A stretch of 64,000 nucleotides of DNA from Alphaproteobacteria bacterium (lineage in GTDB: Bacteria; Pseudomonadota; Alphaproteobacteria; Rhizobiales; Xanthobacteraceae), in contig JBBCGH010000001.1 in NCBI GenBank assembly GCA_037200445.1, positions 248,001 to 312,000 of the forward strand. The letters run 5' to 3'. Shown here piece by piece: positions 12,065 through 26,556 of the stretch. Each line of letters opens with the position of its first letter. The first letter of the stretch is position 1. Made by a program: the position numbers and the translations under genes. The notes under the pieces were generated by a model. That model ran no database searches. It was not told the DNA's origin and saw only the letters and a program-made list of their open reading frames with translations.

Positions 12065-12075
12065 AATGCGGAGCG

Positions 12076-12106
12076 TGGATGGCCGGGACAAGCCCGGCCA
12101 TGACGG
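12076..12106. repeat. Short intergenic palindrome (GGCCGGGACAAGCCCGGCC)
   Basis: The stem GGCCGGG/CCCGGCC inside GATGGCCGGGACAAGCCCGG recurs in expanded form at 63,438 and in variant form around 42,800. It lies between the RAYT unit and the end of holA. Confidence 0.6.
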
Positions 12107-16500: not shown

Positions 16501-16685
16501 GTCGATTCGGGCTCTCGGACGCAAAAAATGGCCGCCGGAGTAGGAACATGGAGGAGGCGCGGGGGTCAATGGGGCGCAATTCGGGTACGGCTATCCCAAA
16601 CGACCGGTCCGGAGCATCATCGCGCCTCATCGCCGGAGCGACAGTTGACTGATCTCAGAGCTCCGCTCCATGGGCGAGAAATCGA

Positions 16686-17663
16686 ATGAAGCTCAAAGAC
16701 TACGAAACCGAGTACATCGCGTTGTATCGCGAGTTTTGTGAGACAGTGCGAGAGATCTTGGCAAAGGCGATCTCGGCCGTGGGCTTACCGCGGCCTCAGT
16801 CTATGCAATGCCGTCCGAAAGATCCCAGGAAGTTGAGGGCGCGGCTTGAACAGGACGGCGCGTTAGAAGCTGACAACATTGAGAGCTTGCGCCGCGATCT
16901 CGCGGGCGCGCGCATCATTTTTTACACGGACACAGACGTTGACCGCTTCATTGGGTCTCGCCTGATCTTCGAAAACTTTGACGTCGAGTCGGACGGCGTC
17001 AAAATTCATCATCCGACTGCTGAGAATGACGAGCGCCAGTACCGGGGTATCCACTATACAATACGACTGAAGGACGACCGCACAAGATTGCCTGAGTACG
17101 CGAAGTTCAAGGGCCTTCGGTGCGAGGTCCAACTCCAAACAATCTTGCACCACGCGTGGTCTGAGACATCGCATGACATTCTCTACAAAAGCGAGGCGCG
17201 GGAGGGATTTGGCGGGCGGGCGATGGAGGCGATTGAGAGTCGCTTCAATCGCATTATGAACAAGTACCTGCTTCCGGCGGGCTACGAATTCCAGCGGGTT
17301 CAACATGACTACGAGCGATTGCAGCAAGGCAAGGACTTATTCGATCGTGATCTTCTGACGCGATTGGATGAAGCCGCTAACAACAACGTGCGTCACGAAA
17401 TCTTATTGTCTTTAAAGCAGGACGTTCTTCCGCACTATGACGACATCGCTGCGATCTATGGCGACGTCCTTCAGGCGCTCGTGGCTGCTGCAAAAAAGGC
17501 GCGCGAAGCACCAACGAGGCAAATCACTACCCCATTCGGCGAACTAGAAGGAAAGACTGCGGCGGAAGTGACCATGTTGGTTGTGGAGACAATCGAGGCG
17601 TTTCGGTACACGGACATTGCCGGCAGCTTCAATGCGCTCCGGGAGCTGTATCCCCATGAATAA
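16686..17663 (+). CDS. RelA/SpoT-domain nucleotidyltransferase, synthetase-only
   Basis: A 325-residue protein with a RelA/SpoT synthetase domain at about residues 40-170: RRDLAGARIIFY (Asp71 matches the catalytic Asp), QYRGIHYTI at 118-126, and CEVQLQTILHHAWSETSHD at 146-164 (Glu147 matches the catalytic Glu of the EIQIRT motif). There is no HD hydrolase, TGS or ACT domain, so it could be a small alarmone synthetase or a toxic pyrophosphokinase acting on nucleotides or tRNA. Residues 175-325 are helical and unassigned. The downstream gene overlaps it by 8 bases. GC content is visibly lower than in leuS, suggesting transfer. Substrate and toxicity are unknown. Confidence 0.85.
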   Translation: MKLKDYETEYIALYREFCETVREILAKAISAVGLPRPQSMQCRPKDPRKLRARLEQDGALEADNIESLRRDLAGARIIFYTDTDVDRFIGSRLIFENFDVESDGVKIHHPTAENDERQYRGIHYTIRLKDDRTRLPEYAKFKGLRCEVQLQTILHHAWSETSHDILYKSEAREGFGGRAMEAIESRFNRIMNKYLLPAGYEFQRVQHDYERLQQGKDLFDRDLLTRLDEAANNNVRHEILLSLKQDVLPHYDDIAAIYGDVLQALVAAAKKAREAPTRQITTPFGELEGKTAAEVTMLVVETIEAFRYTDIAGSFNALRELYPHE

Positions 17664-19698
17664 GGAGCGCGTTCAAAAGAAGATTCTAGAAGTCACCGCG
17701 TCGCTCGCGAAGTATGAGATGGACGTTTGGGCGAAGGTTGGCCCGGGTGTCCAAAGCACGCTGCTCGACGCAATAAGCGCCATCACGCCGGAGGGTCGTA
17801 TTCATAGCCGCGAACTTGTGATCGCCGTATGCGAAGCGGTTCTTTCGCCGGAGATTGAGGGGGCAGTCTGGAAGGCGAACTCCGTGATGTTGCGGACTGG
17901 AGCAGTCCCGGTAATTCCCGAAATTGCTAAGATTCGCGACAAAGCGATTTCGTTCCTCTTCGAACTTTTCAGGGCCGCGAGAACAGATGCGGAGCGGCGT
18001 GAGCTAATCGGCACGTTGCGACGGGCGGGCTATTCGGGCGGGCGAACTGAGACGGGCGATGAATTACTTAGGCTCACACTCTCCGATGCGACACGAGTTG
18101 TCGATTTCTTGTTGAAGGATGCCGGGCCGCTCTCATACGAGCTGATGGCATCGTTGGAACACGACTACTGGTACGACTATCGCCGCGCGCGCGACATCTC
18201 TACGTCGCGGTCAAGAGTGAATTGCCGCGAGATCGCCATTCAACTTATGATAGCTATTGAGAAGCTCCGTGACAAATTCAACGAAGATCCGACCTTCGCG
18301 AAGTTTAAGGTGCTCGTCGGATTTGAGTCGGTCTTCCCTCACCAGTGGAAGGAGCGCGATGATGACAAGGCCGACGACTACGCAGCGTTAGAGCAATATC
18401 GCACAGACCAAGCGAGTAAGTACGTCGATTCAGTTGACGATCAGAACGAGGCGGAATGGTTCGAGCTCATTGAGCGCATTGCATCGGTTGAGTCGAACGA
18501 CTTGGCGACGTTTCCGCCGTTTACTCGTTTCCTGACCCAGCTATCGAGTTCGAAGCCGAGGACTGCCGCACGCCTTTTAGATAAGGCGTCGGAAAGTGTG
18601 GCCAGATTTCTTCCTGCTATTCTCGCCGGACTGAATGAGAGCGGGGACAGTGAGACCTACGATGAGCAAGTCACACGCATTCTCCAGGGTAGGAAATATC
18701 TAGCAGAGCTGGCGCGTCATCTGCGTTTAGCTGAAGGAGCCAGTCTGGATCTTAAGGAGAGAACGCTACATCGTGCAATTGACGTTCAACACGATGTGGC
18801 TGTGGCGGAATGCTTGATAATGGCGATGGAGGCGAAGCCCCAAGACGTTCCGCCCAAGGAAAAGTTTTTTGAGTTAGCGATCCATTATCTCAACCGCAAG
18901 CAAGCTTTCTGGTGGGTGCGAGCTCATTGGATTGCTCGACAAGCCTCATCATTCTTCGCCTCGTTGTCGAAAGATCAGGCGAGTCTTCTCATGCCCGCCA
19001 TGGTCCATGCGCCAAGGGTTGAGTATCAGGTGGAACAAGTCCTGATTCAAATTGCCAAACACTATTCAGCACTCGTGTGGGAGTGCTTTGCGTCTCGCCT
19101 TGTTATCAAAAGAGAAGGGCTAGAGGAGCACTACGAAGCCATTCCCTACCAGCTCCACGGATTGGAAAAGGAGCTGTCGAAAGACGCGAAGCTTGCGATT
19201 AAATTTGGTCGAAAGATGTTTGAAGTCGATGCTCGATTATTCCGCTTTCGAGGAGGCCGCTTGCTAAGCGCGGCCTTTCCATCATGTCCGTCTAACTTTG
19301 CCAATGAGTTGGCTAAGCTAGCCTCTAAAGGCGTGGAAGCAGATGTGAAGTTTGTTCTTGCGGTGATGGAGAATTACCACGGCGAAGAGACGACGCAGGA
19401 AGTACTGAAGCAAGTCATCGCAAAATTTCCGAATGACGACAATATCCGGACTAGCGTCGTTATTAGCCTTGAAAACACAGGCGTCGTGATGGGTGAATTT
19501 GGCTTTGCCAACGCGCTTCGCGAGAAACTTGAAATCGCCCGCACGTGGCTGACTGACCCCCGGCCAGAAGTTCGTGCCTTCGCTGAAGGCCATATTCGGA
19601 GTCTTGAACTCCGGATTGCAAGCGAGCAACGACGGGCCGAAGAGCGGAAGGCTCTTCGGGAGCTAGAATACGACCGAGACGATGAACTCCCGGAATGA
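17656..19698 (+). CDS. Large helix-rich protein of unknown function, partner of the RelA-like gene
   Basis: A 680-residue protein starting at an ATG that overlaps the stop of the RelA/SpoT-like gene by 8 bases, so the two are translationally coupled. No family was recognised. It has no membrane segment or signal peptide, is rich in Leu, Ala, Glu and Lys, and its second half reads like a HEAT/ARM-type superhelix (PRVEYQVEQVLIQIAKHYSA, FVLAVMENYHGEETTQEVLK, WLTDPRPEVRAFAEGHIRSL). It ends in a charged tail (RRAEERKALRELEYDRDDELPE). Base composition matches the RelA-like gene and not the surroundings. It could neutralise, sense for, or scaffold the nucleotidyltransferase; this is inference from coupling alone. 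Confidence 0.8.
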   Translation: MNKERVQKKILEVTASLAKYEMDVWAKVGPGVQSTLLDAISAITPEGRIHSRELVIAVCEAVLSPEIEGAVWKANSVMLRTGAVPVIPEIAKIRDKAISFLFELFRAARTDAERRELIGTLRRAGYSGGRTETGDELLRLTLSDATRVVDFLLKDAGPLSYELMASLEHDYWYDYRRARDISTSRSRVNCREIAIQLMIAIEKLRDKFNEDPTFAKFKVLVGFESVFPHQWKERDDDKADDYAALEQYRTDQASKYVDSVDDQNEAEWFELIERIASVESNDLATFPPFTRFLTQLSSSKPRTAARLLDKASESVARFLPAILAGLNESGDSETYDEQVTRILQGRKYLAELARHLRLAEGASLDLKERTLHRAIDVQHDVAVAECLIMAMEAKPQDVPPKEKFFELAIHYLNRKQAFWWVRAHWIARQASSFFASLSKDQASLLMPAMVHAPRVEYQVEQVLIQIAKHYSALVWECFASRLVIKREGLEEHYEAIPYQLHGLEKELSKDAKLAIKFGRKMFEVDARLFRFRGGRLLSAAFPSCPSNFANELAKLASKGVEADVKFVLAVMENYHGEETTQEVLKQVIAKFPNDDNIRTSVVISLENTGVVMGEFGFANALREKLEIARTWLTDPRPEVRAFAEGHIRSLELRIASEQRRAEERKALRELEYDRDDELPE

Positions 19699-19721: not shown

Positions 19722-19982
19722 GTGCCCCTCTCCACGTTCCCCATCACCCGTCGCTGGCCCGTGCAACATCCGGACTGCCTCCAGCTCTATTCGATCAACA
19801 CGCCGAGCGGCGTGAAGGTCTCGATCATGCTCGAAGAGACCGGCCTGTCCTACGAGGCGCATCTCGTCGATTTCGGCAAGGACGAGCAGAAGACGCCGGA
19901 GTTTCTCTCGCTCAATCGGAACGGCAAGATCTCGGCGATCATCGATCCGGACGGCCCGGGCGGAAAGCCGCTGCCCTCATGA
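19722..19982 (+). pseudogene. Truncated nu-class glutathione S-transferase (5' fragment)
   Basis: The frame from GTG 19722 gives 86 residues that match the first ~84 residues of the intact GST at 25,852 almost line for line (QLYSINTPSGVKVSIMLEET against QLYSLNTPNGVKVSIMLEET) and stops abruptly after GGKPLP, at the point where the intact copy continues LFESGAILGYLG. Only the thioredoxin-like half remains, without the C-terminal helical domain, so it is most likely non-functional. The DNA is diverged from the intact copy, so the duplication is not recent. It lies directly downstream of the RelA-like island. Confidence 0.8.
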
Positions 19983-20048
19983 GCAGACGGTGCCGTTCTC
20001 GACCGCCTCGCTGTATGAAATATCTCAGGGCGCCTGGTGTTGGACCAT

Positions 20049-20088
20049 TTGACAACACCTCTCCCATGTTGGTATAAACTCCAACATG
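20049..20088 (+). promoter_or_regulatory. Promoter and palindromic operator of the TumE/TumA pair
   Basis: A TTGACA (20049-20054) and a TATAAA (20073-20078) are separated by 18 bases. An 8-base inverted repeat CATGTTGG-N8-CCAACATG (20065-20088) covers the -10 box and the start codon itself, a typical position for an autoregulatory toxin-antitoxin repressor. With transcription expected to begin about 7 bases after the -10 box, the message would be essentially leaderless. Confidence 0.75.
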
Positions 20089-20370
20089 CGCGCCGAGCCG
20101 CTGCTGGATGAGCGGCATGTTCTGGACGAGGTCACGTTCGTCGAGCTCGTCATCTGGCGGCTGCCGCGTCCGCTAAGCGGCTCGCGGCATTCGTTCAAGT
20201 ATCGGCTCGCGCTGGTTCGTGAGGGTGTTTGCGTTCTGCGTTACGATAACGAGGCCGGCAAGGGCGACCATCGGCACCTGCGCGAGCGGGAGACGCCCTA
20301 CCGTTTTGTCGACCTCGATACCTTGCTGGCCGATTTCTGGGCCGACGTCGAAAGCCGGAGGCGCGAATGA
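20086..20370 (+). CDS. tumE: TumE-type toxin (DUF6516-like) of a toxin-antitoxin pair
   Basis: A 94-residue protein with the family pattern: an N-terminal VELVIWRLPRPLSGSRHSFKYRL segment, a central VCVLRYDNEAGKGDHRHLRERE stretch rich in His and Glu, and YRFVDLDTLLADFWADV near the end. Such proteins are found next to a winged-helix antitoxin and are annotated as TumE-family toxins. The start is fixed by the promoter geometry, because the ATG lies within the operator. Its stop overlaps the antitoxin ATG (ATGA). The toxin target is not known to me. Confidence 0.7.
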   Translation: MRAEPLLDERHVLDEVTFVELVIWRLPRPLSGSRHSFKYRLALVREGVCVLRYDNEAGKGDHRHLRERETPYRFVDLDTLLADFWADVESRRRE

Positions 20371-20708
20371 CGATCGTCACGCTGCAAGTCTCCTCACTCG
20401 AGGCGGTGAAGAAACGCGCCGCGCGTGCTTTTCGCGGCGAGAAGCAGGGCGCGCGCATCACCTTCGCGTCGCCGGAGCTCTTGTTCAAGCTTTTGACGGC
20501 GAAACGCTGGGAGCTGATCCGCACCATGACCGGCGCCGGCGCCATGACCATCCGCGAGGCGGCGCGCCGCGTTAACCGCGACGTGAAGGCCGTGCATGGC
20601 GATGTGCGTGCGCTGCTCGACTGCGGCGTGTTGCGGCGGACCGAGAAAGGGCTGATCGTCTTTCCCTTCGAGGCGGTGCATCTCGATGTGACGCTGCGCG
20701 CCGCGTAA
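20367..20708 (+). CDS. tumA: TumA-type antitoxin, winged-helix DNA-binding protein
   Basis: A 113-residue protein of the HVO_A0114-like helix-turn-helix group: AKRWELIRTMTGAGAMTIREAARRVNRDVKAVHGDVRALLDCGVLRRTEKGLIVFPFEAVHLDV reads as a complete winged helix with the recognition helix around VNRDVKAVHGDVRAL. Its N-terminus (VTLQVSSLEAVKKRAARAF) probably wraps the toxin. The ATG overlaps the toxin stop by four bases, so the order is toxin first, antitoxin second. The palindrome over the promoter at 20065-20088 is the likely binding site. Confidence 0.7.
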   Translation: MTIVTLQVSSLEAVKKRAARAFRGEKQGARITFASPELLFKLLTAKRWELIRTMTGAGAMTIREAARRVNRDVKAVHGDVRALLDCGVLRRTEKGLIVFPFEAVHLDVTLRAA

Positions 20709-20797
20709 CTGCCGATTGAGCCTCGGCCACGCACTATTGCCCGACCCGGCCGTCATTCACTAGCCTCTGCTGCAGAAACTTCCGGCCACCCCTCGCC

Positions 20798-22306
20798 ATG
20801 AACATCCAGACCCCGCTCCGCGCCACCACCACCAGCGCCGACACCACCGAGCATTTCGACGTGCTCATCGTCGGGGCGGGGATATCGGGCGTGGGCGCGG
20901 CGTATCACCTGACCGCGCAGTGTCCGGGCACGACATTCGTCGCGCTGGAGACGCAGCAAAGCTTTGGCGGAACGTGGCTGACCCATCGCTATCCGGGCAT
21001 CCGCTCGGACAGCGATCTGCACACCTTCGGCTATCGCTTCAAGCCGTGGACCTCGGCGCCGATCGCGACCGCGGAGGAAATCCTGGCGTACATGGGCGAG
21101 GTGATCGAGGAGAACGCGCTCGGTCCGCATATCCGCTATCGGCACACGATCCTGTCGGCGTTGTGGTCGAGCGCGGAGAATCTCTGGACCATCGAGGCGG
21201 TTCGGAGCGACACCGGGCAGCGGCTCACCTTCACGGCGAATTTCTTCTGGGCGTGCCAGGGCTACTACCGCCATTCCGAAGGCTACACGCCGGAGTGGAA
21301 GGGCGTGGCGGATTTCAAGGGCCGCATCGTGCATCCCCAGCTTTGGCCCGACGACCTCGATTACAGGGGAAAGAACGTCGTGGTGATCGGCTCGGGCGCC
21401 ACCGCGGCGACACTCATCCCCGCCATCGCGAGCGAATGCGCGCACGTCACGATGCTGCAGCGCTCGCCGACCTTCTTCCGCACCGGCCGCAACGCGATCG
21501 AGATCGCCGAGGAGCTGCGCAAGTTGCAGATCGACGAATCGTGGATCCACGAGGTCGTCCGGCGCAAGATCACCTATGAGCAGACGGTGTTCACGCAGCG
21601 CTCGTTCAGCGAGCCCCAGAAAGTGACGAAGGAATTGCTCGGCGCGGTCAGCGCGATCCTCGGCCCCGGCTACGACATGGAGACGCACTTCACGCCGCGC
21701 TACCGGCCATGGCGGCAGCGCATCGCGTTCGTGCCGGATGGCGATCTGTTTCACAGCATCAGGTCGGGCAAGGCGTCGGTGGTGACCGACGAGATCGACC
21801 GCTTCGTCGCGACCGGCATTCTCCTGAAATCGGGCAAGACGCTTCAAGCCGACATCATCGTCACCGCCACCGGCTTTCATCTCAGCGCGCTCGGGGATAT
21901 CGATTTCGTGATCGACGGCAAGCCGCTCGCACTCGCCGATACCGTCACCTATCGGGGCATGATGTTCACCGGGGTGCCCAACCTGGTTTGGGTGTTCGGC
22001 TATTTCCGCGCGAGCTGGACGCTGCGGGTCGATCTCGTCGCCGACTTCGTGTGCGGGCTGCTCAAGCACATGCAGCAGATCGGGGCGCGAAAGGTTACGC
22101 CGGCGCTGCGGCCCGAGGACAAGGACATGCCGCTGTTGGACTGGATCGATCCGGAGAATTTCAATCCCGGCTACATGATGCGCGGCATGCATTTGCTGCC
22201 GAAGCGTGGCGACAAGCCGGAATGGCAGCACAGCCAGGATTACTGGAACGAGCGCACCCAGTTCGCCGCGATCGATTTCAACGACAGCGCATTTGTTTAC
22301 GCGTAA
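20798..22306 (+). CDS. Flavin-containing (Baeyer-Villiger type) monooxygenase
   Basis: A 502-residue class B flavoprotein monooxygenase that uses FAD and NADPH. Visible motifs are the FAD-binding VLIVGAGISG at 22-31, the class signature FKGRIVHPQLWP from residue 173 (FxGxxxHxxxW/P pattern), the NADPH-binding VVVIGSGATAAT, and the ATG motif VTATGF. Overall form resembles EthA-like enzymes, which oxidise ketones, thioethers or thioamides; the substrate here is unknown. There is no neighbouring acetoacetate or ester-hydrolase gene to suggest a catabolic pathway. It ends 107 bases before the CadC-like regulator on the same strand. Confidence 0.9.
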   Translation: MNIQTPLRATTTSADTTEHFDVLIVGAGISGVGAAYHLTAQCPGTTFVALETQQSFGGTWLTHRYPGIRSDSDLHTFGYRFKPWTSAPIATAEEILAYMGEVIEENALGPHIRYRHTILSALWSSAENLWTIEAVRSDTGQRLTFTANFFWACQGYYRHSEGYTPEWKGVADFKGRIVHPQLWPDDLDYRGKNVVVIGSGATAATLIPAIASECAHVTMLQRSPTFFRTGRNAIEIAEELRKLQIDESWIHEVVRRKITYEQTVFTQRSFSEPQKVTKELLGAVSAILGPGYDMETHFTPRYRPWRQRIAFVPDGDLFHSIRSGKASVVTDEIDRFVATGILLKSGKTLQADIIVTATGFHLSALGDIDFVIDGKPLALADTVTYRGMMFTGVPNLVWVFGYFRASWTLRVDLVADFVCGLLKHMQQIGARKVTPALRPEDKDMPLLDWIDPENFNPGYMMRGMHLLPKRGDKPEWQHSQDYWNERTQFAAIDFNDSAFVYA

Positions 22307-22412
22307 GGCTGTAACCGGCAGGCCGAACGTCGGCGTCGTGTCGCTGGGAAGTGATGACGGCGGCTCCGGCTAGTTTGCTAGACTCGGCGCCGGCATTCGC
22401 GCACGCTGCGAG

Positions 22413-24188
22413 ATGAAAATGGCCCCCGACGGCGCCGAACCGGTAAACCAGCCGCCAGCAAGGCGCCTGCGCTTCGACCGGTATGTGCTCGACCTCGATC
22501 GCGGCAGCCTGCTTCGCGACGGGGCTGAGATTACGCTGCGGCCGAAGACTTTCGCGGTGTTGCTGCACCTTGTCGAAAATCCGAACCGTCTTGTCTCGAA
22601 GGAAGATCTCTTTGGCGCGGTCTGGCCGAACATCGCGGTGACCGACGACGCGCTGGTGCAAAGCATTGGCGAGCTGCGCCGCGCGCTTGGCGACGACGGG
22701 CCGCGCCTGATCAGGACGGTTCCGCGCCGCGGATACCGGCTGGAATCGGACGTCTCGGCCGATCCGGAAGCCGGACTCTCCGCCGCTGCGCCTCCGGTCG
22801 CGGCGCCGCGAACCCAGGACGCCGTTGCGGCGTCCGAGCAGGCGACCATATCGTCGCGGCGGTCATTCGCGATGTTGCGCTGGGCGCTCGCGCTTGGGGC
22901 CGCGCTGGCCATGGCGCTGCTGTGGGCAGGCGCCGCGTCCGACTGGAGATTTTTTGCCGGCCGGCCCGGGGCGACAGTCGAGACTGTGCGGCCTGGGGCG
23001 AAGCCCGCAATCGCCGTCCTGCCATTCGAGAATCAGGGTGAAGACCGAACGCGTGACTATTTCGCGGATGGGCTGACGCAGGACATCATTGCGGCGCTGG
23101 GGCGCTTTTCCGAGCTGACCGTGATGTCATGGAATGCGGTCTTCCCCTACAAGAACAAGCATACGGCTCCGGCCGAGATCGGCCGCGCGCTCGCGGTCCG
23201 CTATCAGCTTGAAGGCAGTGTGCGCGAGAGCGAAGGGCGCGTGCGGGTGACCGCACAGCTCGTCGACGCGAACGGGCATGTGCTCTGGTCCGGCAGTTTC
23301 GATGAGCCGCGCGCCGAGCTGTTCGCGCTGCAAGACAAGATCACGACCGAGATTGCACGGCGGCTCCCCGTCCAGCTCACGCAGATCGAGCAGCGGCGCG
23401 TGCAGGCGCGGCCCACCGAAAACCTCGAAGCCTACGACTATGTGTTGCGCGCGAGGCCGGCCTCGCAGCGTCCGGCGCGCGCCAGCATCGTGGAAGCGCG
23501 TGAGCTGTTGCGCCGCGCGATCGCACTCGATCCGAATTACGCGTCAGCCTATGCGGGGCTTGCCGACACCTATCACATCGCGACCGTGATGGGGTGGGCG
23601 GAGTCCCCGACGGAGTTTCTCGGCCGCGCCGCAGAGCTTGCCAACAAGGCGCTGAGTCTGAACGAATCCGAAGTGCACGCGCGCAGCATCCTCGGCCGCA
23701 TTCACATCTTCTATCGCCGCTACGAGCAGGCCAAAGCCGAGATCGATCGCGCGATCGCGATCAATCCCAACGATGCGGATGGCCTCGCCGGCCGCGGCAA
23801 TATCCTGATGTGGTCGGGGCAGACCGACGCGGCGATCGAAACACTGGAGCTCGCACAGCGGATCGATCCCGAGCTCAACCCCTTCGATCGGTCTGCATTG
23901 AGTCTCGCCTATTATCTCAAGCAGCGCTACGACGCGGCGATCGAACAGGCGGAGCTCAATCTGCGCCGGACCGAGGGTGCAAATTTCAGCCGCATCGTGC
24001 TCGCCGCCGCGGACGCACAGCTCAACCGGACCGAAGAGACCGCGCAGGCCGTGGCGGCGATCCACCGGCTCGATCCGACATTCGACGCGCAGGAGTTCGG
24101 GACCAAGTTTCTCAGCGTTGATGATCTCGCACACCTGCGCGAGGGTCTGCGCAAGGCCGGCTTGATGGCGCCGGAGTCCAGGCCGTGA
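22413..24188 (+). CDS. CadC-like membrane-anchored winged-helix regulator with TPR domain
   Basis: A 591-residue one-component regulator. Residues 19-110 form an OmpR-type winged helix (LRFDRYVLDLDRGSLLRDG ... IRTVPRRGYRLE). A single transmembrane helix lies at about 153-175, followed in the periplasm by a TolB-N/FlgO-like domain (PAIAVLPFENQGEDRTRDYF, ADGLTQDIIAAL) and TPR units at about 360-560. This class senses a periplasmic condition and binds DNA from the membrane. Target genes are unknown; the flavin monooxygenase upstream and the YHS gene downstream are candidates by position only. Confidence 0.88.
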   Translation: MKMAPDGAEPVNQPPARRLRFDRYVLDLDRGSLLRDGAEITLRPKTFAVLLHLVENPNRLVSKEDLFGAVWPNIAVTDDALVQSIGELRRALGDDGPRLIRTVPRRGYRLESDVSADPEAGLSAAAPPVAAPRTQDAVAASEQATISSRRSFAMLRWALALGAALAMALLWAGAASDWRFFAGRPGATVETVRPGAKPAIAVLPFENQGEDRTRDYFADGLTQDIIAALGRFSELTVMSWNAVFPYKNKHTAPAEIGRALAVRYQLEGSVRESEGRVRVTAQLVDANGHVLWSGSFDEPRAELFALQDKITTEIARRLPVQLTQIEQRRVQARPTENLEAYDYVLRARPASQRPARASIVEARELLRRAIALDPNYASAYAGLADTYHIATVMGWAESPTEFLGRAAELANKALSLNESEVHARSILGRIHIFYRRYEQAKAEIDRAIAINPNDADGLAGRGNILMWSGQTDAAIETLELAQRIDPELNPFDRSALSLAYYLKQRYDAAIEQAELNLRRTEGANFSRIVLAAADAQLNRTEETAQAVAAIHRLDPTFDAQEFGTKFLSVDDLAHLREGLRKAGLMAPESRP

Positions 24189-24206
24189 CCGCTAGATTTT
24201 TTGTTT

Positions 24207-24279
24207 GAGCATGATCTTTTCCGAAAACCGGTTCCCGTCCCCGATCGGGGTCGAGGACATGCTTTTCGGGATCATGCTC
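24207..24279. repeat. CGAAAACCGGT-type dispersed repeat
   Basis: A long imperfect palindrome with outer arms GAGCATGATC/GATCATGCTC and the inner motif TCCGAAAACCGGT, ending in TTTTCGGGATCATG. Relatives occur at 36,830, 44,847, 47,452 and 62,670. It joins the 3' ends of the CadC-like gene and the YHS gene and touches the YHS stop codon. Confidence 0.8.
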
Positions 24280-24737
24280 TACTCCTTCGGCAGGATGGTC
24301 CGGTTCTGGTTTGCCTTGACGACGTTCGCGGCAAGATCGTTCTGGAACAGGACGGGTCCCGCTGGCGCCGGACTGCCGAACACGTAAAGCTTGCCCTCGC
24401 TGATCAGCCAGTTTTCCGGGTTCGCGACCACGATCTGACCTTTCGCGAGCGCCATTGCGCAGTAATTGCCGAACTGCGGCGCATAGCGCACCGGGTCCGC
24501 CTTGAAGCGATCGCGGTGCTCGGCGCTGACGAACAGATAGCGGTGGTCGTCCCAGTCGTAGGCGAACTCGGGCGCGCCCTTTGTCGGCTTCCCCAGCGTG
24601 AAATACGCCACCGGGTCGTAGCCCTTGATGGCGAGCGGAAAATCCGCCGCCCCCGCGGATGGGGCCCCGAGGGCGAAAGCGGTCGCGGCGAGCGCCACGA
24701 GGTGAAGGGCGGTTCGGCGGCTCAGGGCGGCTGTCAT
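24279..24737 (-). CDS. Exported YHS-domain protein
   Basis: A 152-residue protein with a signal peptide (SRRTALHLVALAATAFALGAPSAGA; the twin Arg hints at the Tat route) and one YHS domain: KGYDPVAYFTLGKPTKGAPEF, then FVSAEHRDRFKADPVRYAPQFGNYCAMAL. YHS domains are small Cys-containing modules thought to bind metal, and many periplasmic examples lie near metal or redox genes. The ATG at 24737 is chosen because the signal peptide begins there. The gene faces the CadC-like regulator gene across a dispersed repeat. Confidence 0.85.
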   Translation of the reverse strand: MTAALSRRTALHLVALAATAFALGAPSAGAADFPLAIKGYDPVAYFTLGKPTKGAPEFAYDWDDHRYLFVSAEHRDRFKADPVRYAPQFGNYCAMALAKGQIVVANPENWLISEGKLYVFGSPAPAGPVLFQNDLAANVVKANQNRTILPKE

Positions 24738-24864
24738 GATCCGTGCTCCTGCGATGATGGGGGCCAATCGACCCCGCAAGGCAATCAGAACGGTCCGCTC
24801 CGGTAACGAGGAAGGCCGAAGGAAACACCGAAAAAACACCGAAATTTGGGCCGCCGTGAACATC

Positions 24865-25740
24865 TTACCCCCGCTCGATCGGCAACGCCGCATCTTTCGC
24901 CCATTCGCCCATCGAGCCGTCATAGAGCGCGAGGTCGTCGTAACCGAGCTGGTGCATCAGGAAGAGATCGATGGTGGCCGAGATGCCGCCGCCGCAATAG
25001 CAGATGACCCGCTTGTCCTTGGTCGCGCCCTGCGCGGCGAATTTCGCGGCCGCGTCGGCGAGTGTCGTGAAGCCCTTGGTGGCGCGGTCGATCAGGGTTG
25101 CGGCCGAGACGTTGACGCTGCCGGGGACGCGTCCGGGCCGGCCGTAGCGGCTCGGCTCGAGGCCCGCATGGAATTGCGGCCCGAGCGCGTTCACCGTGAC
25201 GGTGTCCGGCGCGCCGATCGCGGCTTGTGTCGCGTGCTTGTCGGCGAACATCCCTGGCCGCGGCCGCGCCTTGAAGCTGGCGGCCGGATAGTCCCTCGGG
25301 TCGCCGCTTTCGATTGGGCGCCCCTCGGCCTTCCATTTGTCGAAGCCGCCGTCGAGCACCGCGGCCTTGTCGAAGCCGAGCGCGCGCAGCATCCACCAGA
25401 AGCGCGTCGACCACATCATGCTGCCGATGCTGTAGAGCACGACGCGCCCGCCCTCGCCGATGCCGTGGCGCGCGAACGCGGCTTCGAGCTGCGCGATATC
25501 CGGCATCATGAACCAGGGCCGCTGGCTCTTGTCGGAGAACTCGCCCTGCAGGTCGAGAAAGTTCGCGCCGGGAATGTGCGCCTCGCGAAAGGTCGCGAGC
25601 CCCGGCACCGGCAGGTACGGCTCGTCAACGCCGGGCGGCGGCGGATTGTTGTAGGTCGTACAGTCGTAGATCCGCAGGCGCGGGTCGCCGAGGCAGGCGG
25701 CAAGCGCTTCCGTTGAGATGATGGCGTTCGGGTCGCGCAT
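24865..25740 (-). CDS. Two-domain sulfurtransferase (rhodanese / 3-mercaptopyruvate type)
   Basis: A 291-residue protein with tandem rhodanese domains. The N-terminal one (HIPGANFLDLQGEF, then VVLYSIGSMMWSTRFWWML) lacks the catalytic Cys, as usual. The C-terminal one carries the active-site loop VICYCGGGISATIDLFL, in which the Cys of CGGGIS is the sulfur carrier. The loop differs from the CGSGVT of mercaptopyruvate enzymes and the CRKGVT of thiosulfate enzymes, so the donor cannot be called. The start at 25740 (MRDPNAIISTEALA) fits the family; the long open frame upstream is antisense to the GST gene. Confidence 0.88.
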   Translation of the reverse strand: MRDPNAIISTEALAACLGDPRLRIYDCTTYNNPPPPGVDEPYLPVPGLATFREAHIPGANFLDLQGEFSDKSQRPWFMMPDIAQLEAAFARHGIGEGGRVVLYSIGSMMWSTRFWWMLRALGFDKAAVLDGGFDKWKAEGRPIESGDPRDYPAASFKARPRPGMFADKHATQAAIGAPDTVTVNALGPQFHAGLEPSRYGRPGRVPGSVNVSAATLIDRATKGFTTLADAAAKFAAQGATKDKRVICYCGGGISATIDLFLMHQLGYDDLALYDGSMGEWAKDAALPIERG

Positions 25741-25851
25741 GGGTGGCTCCGGCGGGCGGAGCGGGATGATAGGGAATGGCTGCCGGAAGGCGAGTCTTGA
25801 TGGCGGTAGGGCGCGTTGCCATCTCTCTGCCAGACCGCTGGAGATTTTTGA

Positions 25852-26556
25852 ATGGCCGATCTCTCCGCCTTCCCCGTCACGCGCCGCTGGCCGGCGCAGC
25901 ATCCGGACCGGCTGCAGCTTTATTCGCTCAACACGCCGAACGGCGTGAAGGTCTCGATCATGCTCGAGGAGACCGGGCTCCCCTATGAGCCGCATCTCGT
26001 CGACTTCAACAAGAACGACCAGAAGACCCCGGAGTTTCTCTCGCTCAATCCGAATGGAAAAATCCCGGCGATCATCGATCCGGACGGGCCTGGCGGAAAG
26101 CCGCTGCCGCTGTTCGAGTCGGGCGCGATCCTCGGCTACCTGGGGGCCAGGACCCACAAGATGATCCCGCTCGATCCGGCGCGGATGTACGAGACGATCC
26201 AGTGGGTGCATTTCCAGATGGCGTTCGTCGGGCCGATGTTCGGCCAGGTCGGCTTCTTCAACAAGTTCGCCGGCAAGGATTTCGAGGACAAGCGCCCGCG
26301 CGACCGCTACGTGAACGAGTCAAAGCGCATCCTCGGCGTGATGGACCAGCGCCTTGCCGGCCGCCAGTGGTTCATGGACGACGACTACACGATCGCCGAC
26401 ATTGCGATGCTCGGCTGGGTGCGCAACCTGATCACGCTCTACGAGGCGCGCGAGCTGGTCGAATTCGACAGGTTCGGCAATGTGGCGGCGTGGCTGGAGC
26501 GCGGCCTCGCGCGCCCGGCGGTGCAGCGCGGGCTACAGATCCCGAAGCGCGGGTAG
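25852..26556 (+). CDS. Glutathione S-transferase, nu-class (YfcG/YghU-like)
   Basis: A 234-residue cytosolic GST. The N-terminal LQLYSLNTPNGVKVSIMLEETGLPYEP places the Thr-Pro-Asn glutathione-contacting motif typical of YfcG/YghU proteins, which act mainly as glutathione disulfide reductases; NPNGKIPAII contains the cis-Pro, and LFESGAILGYLG the gamma-glutamyl-binding Glu-Ser. The C-terminal domain includes DDDYTIADIAMLGWV. The ATG at 25852 lies 111 bases from the divergent sulfurtransferase start. A truncated, diverged copy of its 5' half sits at 19,722. Confidence 0.93.
   Translation: MADLSAFPVTRRWPAQHPDRLQLYSLNTPNGVKVSIMLEETGLPYEPHLVDFNKNDQKTPEFLSLNPNGKIPAIIDPDGPGGKPLPLFESGAILGYLGARTHKMIPLDPARMYETIQWVHFQMAFVGPMFGQVGFFNKFAGKDFEDKRPRDRYVNESKRILGVMDQRLAGRQWFMDDDYTIADIAMLGWVRNLITLYEARELVEFDRFGNVAAWLERGLARPAVQRGLQIPKRG

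Follow-up and report, generated by a model that had tools for sequence, protein, structure and literature searches.

The window analysed here is a stretch of 64,000 nucleotides from an Alphaproteobacteria bacterium of the Xanthobacteraceae (GenBank assembly GCA_037200445.1, contig JBBCGH010000001.1, positions 248,001 to 312,000), and at 16686-19698 it carries two overlapping genes, one for a RelA/SpoT-fold enzyme (P0001) and one for a large helical protein (P0002). An earlier reading of the letters alone, hereafter the original prediction, had taken them for a coupled pair and a candidate conflict or stress module. The coupling and the conflict-type module stood up in our analysis, but the pair is normally one protein and its helical solenoid is not tied to RelA alone. 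The window pair is one member of a wider, solenoid-defined family and not a RelA-specific toxin with an unknown antitoxin. The module comprises the following features.

16686..17663, + strand: effector gene for P0001, a RelA/SpoT-fold nucleotidyl- or pyrophosphotransferase of 325 amino acids (aa); matches PF04607 (E 3.3e-10) and the PADLOC candidate PDC-S33 (E 5.3e-10), and a profile of its relatives leads to solved small alarmone synthetases
16812..17195, + strand: synthetase domain, aa 43-170 (Pfam range), with R43, K45, D71, R76 and E147 invariant in a 26-row alignment
17283..17660, + strand: helical C-terminal tail of P0001, which runs into the solenoid in fused relatives (collinear with fused P0003 and P0006)
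17656..17663, + strand: 8-base overlap of start and stop, ATGAATAA, its position kept in Bradyrhizobium retamae (comparison of open reading frames, ORFs)
17656..19698, + strand: P0002, a HEAT-like alpha-solenoid protein of 680 aa counted from ATG, the proposed sensor or regulator (relatives at 59 loci, model of a fused relative, fold matches)

RelA_SpoT was the sole Pfam match in P0001 (40.7 bits against a cut-off of 27) and hence no hydrolase, TGS or ACT domain was seen, in agreement with the original prediction, whose Asp71, YRGIHY strand and Glu147 also lie where it had placed them. The five invariant residues are shared by 26/26 aligned synthetase rows, the window row included, and Y119 is either kept or replaced by F across them; we take R43, K45 and R76 to serve the ATP side, D71 the metal, Y119 the acceptor and E147 as base. 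Among solved structures, small alarmone synthetases come nearest both in sequence and in fold. Membership in the housekeeping small alarmone synthetases is not supported, since the curated NCBIfam equivalog model for GTP diphosphokinase gave 12.7 bits against its cut-off of 320. The only BFVD match below 0.001 was a phage RelA/SpoT protein of 432 aa, with about 220 columns matched, and a scan of viral contigs with P0001 alone yielded no new locus. The genome of the window encodes one other RelA_SpoT protein, within an 801-aa frame. A more distant RelA/SpoT-like protein (L083:3992-5431; 31% over 66% of P0001) was seen on a Limnohabitans plasmid, where its gene sits among HigB, PemK and Fic genes.

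The ORF census of the solenoid family covered 60 loci, i.e. 59 found and the window; three further loci, copies of the window, were left out, and near-copies among the loci are L037/L061, L004/L058/L060, L007/L009 and L029/L030. Solenoid and effector genes standing apart in most genomes were not seen: a synthetase domain is attached at 31/60 loci (class I) and another effector at 26/60 (class II). Among the class I loci, 27 of 31 are fused in one frame of 994-1310 aa (except L021, cut by a contig end), L024 and L034 are broken, and a split with both frames open occurs only in the window and in B. retamae (L017). In the fused relatives the sequence continues across the stop and start point of the window; the two genes are normally one protein of about 1000 aa, and the split in the window is a local exception. 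The overlap noticed in the original prediction (ORFs 16686-17663 and 17656-19698) recurs identically in B. retamae, with 69% protein identity and the stop codon TGA in place of the TAA of the window. The same overlap with another stop codon indicates that the split was inherited and is not a sequencing slip. Longer fused versions were found at L003:6653-10585 and L054:7909-11781; the longer one of R. rhizogenes ends in a C-terminal poly-gamma-glutamate hydrolase domain (Pfam E 8.6e-45), and the Ensifer version is of similar length.

At the class II loci a solenoid gene of about 800 aa lies behind a different effector gene and starts -26 to +8 bases from its end (L061 is cut by a contig end). 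The 26 class II effectors comprise 21 PIN proteins, three that are restriction-endonuclease-like, one DUF4365 protein and one of unclear type, and all 26 end in a similar winged-helix-like adaptor. One class II effector of unassigned type (L014:3882-4688) retains the adaptor (E about 1e-3) and has no Pfam match up to 0.5. That the adaptor is homologous to the linker of an Aulosira protein described below was rejected, as its hidden Markov model gave no significant hit and hhalign a probability of 5%. The P0001 tail matches profile A6 (E 2.5e-20), which itself includes fused rows, and P0001 was not detected by a profile built from class II N-termini alone. The three remaining loci are L043, cut by a contig end, L039, a fragment, and L036, which is decayed and has lost the synthetase part; the decayed solenoid (L036:7184-10455) lies beside a presumed seven-transmembrane transglutaminase gene, possibly a recombination or assembly junction. 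In a tree of 55 solenoids (without L024, L034, L036, L039 and L043), one 100/100 branch separates the RelA class from class II, and the PIN type is interrupted by the restriction-endonuclease-like, DUF4365 and unclear types. Other conflict systems have an effector slot occupied by PIN or RelA domains, according to PMC7159879; effector exchange as such is, on that account, already known.

P0002 itself gave no Pfam match at E 1 or below, HEAT included, and no PADLOC or NCBIfam match; its best E against PDB sequences was 1.1, and the solenoid profile scored at most 16 bits against 177,635 PDB sequences. We predicted the structure of the fused 1013-aa relative from Gallionella (L019) from 42 aligned rows, with a mean predicted local distance difference test (pLDDT) value of 84.6 and a predicted template modelling (pTM) score of 0.64. 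The model shows the synthetase domain and, after it, a long solenoid that is mostly helical; the fold matches of the model are HEAT/ARM proteins (PP2A-A, CAND1, importins) at levels usual among helical repeats; HEAT exceeded the Pfam cut-off in 2/9 scanned solenoid proteins. On this predicted structure the solenoid is HEAT/ARM-like, which supports the HEAT-like character that the original prediction gave to the second protein. Furthermore, a class II query found a 1206-aa protein on an Aulosira laxa plasmid (P0010, L096:6462-10082; 21.5%, E 9e-12), to whose residues 457-1195 the 36-row solenoid profile aligns with 158 bits, against the best PDB score of 16 bits. The N-terminal half of P0010 carries an AAA_16 P-loop match just over the cut-off (32.9 against 32.6 with neighbours), and the solenoid forms, in this one sequence, the C-terminal half of an AAA/STAND-like protein. 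This one protein is the main ground for regarding the solenoid as a sensor comparable to those of STAND receptors. A search for further Aulosira-like proteins gave only P0010 itself and two known class II loci on plasmids and none on viral contigs; the protein is possibly an ancestor or an offshoot of the receptor family.

The module family spans several phyla with a patchy distribution. P0002 had matches in 4/72,556 plasmid records, and its alignments found six viral contigs. Species-representative genome contigs gave 46 loci in a scan seeded by two conserved peptides, which misses divergent copies. P0002 alone hit 1/198 family genomes, and the solenoid profile 4/289 class (three besides the window's own), 2/398 phylum and 9/397 order genomes, own genome counted and two of the nine being short and partial. 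All seven full-length hits of the genome samples outside the window and the species-representative contigs carry an effector (L014-L016 are within the 60; the effectors of L065, L069, L071 and L072 were judged from length and N-terminal sequence only). Class II scans of viral contigs added, outside the 60, L091, where a PIN-like gene of 308 aa precedes a solenoid of 804 aa, and a viral-contig scan with the restriction-endonuclease-like effectors gave no new locus.

In the window the module is an acquired insert of low guanine-cytosine (GC) content between leuS and a fragment of a glutathione S-transferase (GST) gene. Its GC content is 53.6%, against 65.2% in the rest of the window and 65.9% in leuS, and the six segments of lowest GC among 244 of 3013 bp all overlap it. 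The right edge is marked by one further feature.

19726..19973, + strand: GST gene fragment bounding the insert on its right (blastn matches at window 25861-26108 and in the GST ORF of the congener G056)

The fragment, the broken GST copy of the original prediction, has 248 bp that are 87% identical to the 5' end of the GST ORF at 25852-26556. On a single contig of G056 about 450 bp separate the start of leuS from an intact GST ORF; in the window, where the module is in between, the distance is about 3150 bp. The acquired island and the GC drop below leuS had been read correctly from the letters. DNA similarity to the B. retamae locus spans 16661-19673, i.e. the module, at 71%, the sole match outside it is a 33-bp repeat, and the module of B. 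retamae also has a low GC content (52.1% against 64%). Similarity confined to the module, its low GC content in both genomes and the geometry of the insertion indicate that the two genes move jointly and were acquired as one piece. Since the leuS-GST gap of G056 is filled by other short sequence, the site may be an insertion hot spot. The 248-bp repeat of the GST 5' end (window 19726-26556) flanks about 5.9 kb of extra genes. Directly right of the fragment lies a TumE-type gene (20086-20370; PF20126 over cut-off), whose end is overlapped by 4 bases by a small gene (20367-20708) that by eye resembles a helix-turn-helix partner; a second TumE-like match with an internal TAG lies at 3,747,821-3,748,048 of the same genome. 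The 33-bp repeat is palindrome-like and lies at 12074-12106 of the window; it is unchanged in B. retamae and nearly unchanged in two congeners.

To describe the genomic context of the relatives, we compared their neighbours with PADLOC at 1e-10, leaving out by hand L003-L006, L034, L036, L039, L053 and L059. The two nearest ORFs on each side (150/178 proteins, below 1200 aa; three longer proteins had been dropped earlier) matched 81 families, among the 25 listed MzaA, mad2/mad3, endonuclease and SAVED effectors, SduA, AbiU, DRT proteins and GajB. The fifth and sixth ORFs (104/126 proteins) matched 83 families, among the 25 listed JetB/JetC, SIR2, E1-E2, TRIP13 and HORMA. This second set was rejected as a control for defence linkage, being itself rich in defence families, and the window proteins were used instead; the other 47 ORFs of the window matched two families weakly. 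The R. rhizogenes gene lies near TIR, caspase, metallophosphoesterase and SIR2 genes and transposases. The relatives lie in defence-rich regions, but a tight link to defence genes did not emerge.

A constant solenoid, differing effectors, their physical linkage, intact synthetase residues, mobility and the defence-rich context of the relatives are what we observed. We consider it probable that the module is a mobile sensor-effector immunity (or self-damage) module, in which an interchangeable enzyme that arrests growth is under the control of the solenoid, itself the sensor of infection or damage. The HEAT-like solenoid, the constant part, would recognise a cue of infection, genome invasion or damage. 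It is tied to its effector, being fused with it in most class I copies and encoded by the adjacent gene in class II, and it may hold the effector off and, on recognition, release or reposition it. Judged by its fold, the window effector would transfer pyrophosphate from ATP to a nucleotide or tRNA, and growth or translation would stop, leaving phage unable to multiply. In the relatives a PIN nuclease or PD-(D/E)xK-like nucleases with the winged-helix-like adaptor would fill the same role. The usual single protein is split in the window into two overlapping genes, whose products presumably form a 1:1 complex.

Several observations weigh against this reading. The nearest neighbours show no excess of defence families over those further away, which indicates defence-rich regions and not a tight link; the PADLOC family counts are too high, as a single protein can match several overlapping models, and one genome served as the control. 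The window is without a classical defence neighbourhood, its companions being the two weak PADLOC families and the TumE-type pair, and a phage collection (50,697 records, queried with P0002 and the L010 solenoid) contained no relative. Effector types cluster strongly on the tree, where the labels need four changes, the minimum for five labels, whereas shuffling gave a mean of 21; swaps occurred but were few in the sample. Moreover, the restriction-endonuclease fold was called without a Foldseek hit under 0.001, and the STAND-like link is one Aulosira sequence.

It is conceivable, though we think it less likely than not, that the modules form an NLR/Avs-like receptor family free of a nucleoside triphosphatase (NTPase), one family of pattern-recognition solenoids providing both the sensor of an ATPase-driven receptor (Aulosira) and a stand-alone receptor coupled directly to interchangeable killers. 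The killers would be a RelA-type pyrophosphotransferase and, joined through the winged-helix adaptor, a PIN RNase and PD-(D/E)xK nucleases of two kinds. We regard as unlikely a toxin-antitoxin pair kept by addiction, with the synthetase as a constitutive toxin that the solenoid merely neutralises, and no specific sensing of infection. The operon with its 8-base overlap, the copies on plasmids, the TumE-type pair next door and toxSAS enzymes of the same fold (PMC9712102) speak for it. However, the synthetase part comes first and is fused at 27/31 class I loci, and the partner has 680-800 aa and is kept with unrelated effectors, all of which is unusual for a simple antitoxin; the partner is also the C-terminal half of an AAA_16 protein, and the YXXY motif of CapRel type is not conserved. 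Because of partner size, fusion and effector exchange we rejected a pair with a small antitoxin; of the roles that the original prediction had offered for the partner, sensor or scaffold is supported, and the partner is far larger than the small antitoxin domain of CapRel. A stress-response alarmone synthetase, whose solenoid would be a regulatory domain for a metabolic cue and whose product would be ordinary (p)ppGpp, seems to us improbable, in view of the patchy occurrence in the sampled genomes, the sharing of the solenoid partner with nucleases and the low GTP diphosphokinase score. That the pair is a decayed, split pseudogene of a formerly fused protein, as the fusion at 27/31 class I loci and the broken L024 and L034 might suggest, is very improbable, since the split in B. 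retamae is identical in position and overlap, with both frames open, and the window retains the catalytic residues.

In the searched literature, which covers few subscription papers, we recognised no description of the solenoid family, its direct coupling to effectors or the adaptor. If the preferred reading of a sensor-effector module is true, several phyla would share a modular defence family not described so far, with a constant sensor and a changing weapon, and an alarmone-type enzyme, an RNase and a DNase could each be used to test one kind of trigger. RelA/SpoT-type effectors would gain a second, structurally unrelated sensor control, and the question would arise whether a solenoid receptor signals without an ATPase.

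Among known systems, the module shares with CapRel an N-terminal RelA/SpoT-fold synthetase joined to a C-terminal controlling or sensing part, and the adenine-coordinating arginines and the G-loop aromatic residue appear to be kept, the equivalence of positions being our own assignment. CapRel has a small pseudo-zinc-finger domain, whereas here the controller is a HEAT-like solenoid of about 680-800 aa that is also paired with nucleases; PMC9712102 describes the YXXY motif of CapRel and the fold shared by toxSAS enzymes. No conserved tyrosine pair three positions apart was found among 24 rows, and membership in CapRel/toxSAS, with their small C-terminal antitoxin domain, is not supported for a partner of 680 aa. 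RelP and RelQ are stand-alone synthetases; the synthetase of the module lies far below the GTP diphosphokinase cut-off. The PDC-S33 model, which from its label we take to be a computational candidate, shares the synthetase domain and is silent on the solenoid; its match to P0001 spans 128/349 model positions, and it is matched by 12/36 proteins of A6, a set holding 12 fused ones. Olokun was rejected: OloA matched 2/36 solenoid proteins weakly (best 3.1e-7), the other 34, P0002 included, had no match, and OloB was not searched for. Unlike STAND/Avs proteins, P0001, P0002 and the scanned relatives and effectors have no ATPase family among their Pfam matches, and P0001 and P0002 have no P-loop NTPase between effector and sensor. 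Homology of the solenoid to part of an NTPase protein was nevertheless seen for one protein, P0010 of Aulosira, and the predicted alpha-solenoid build is that of HEAT repeat proteins.
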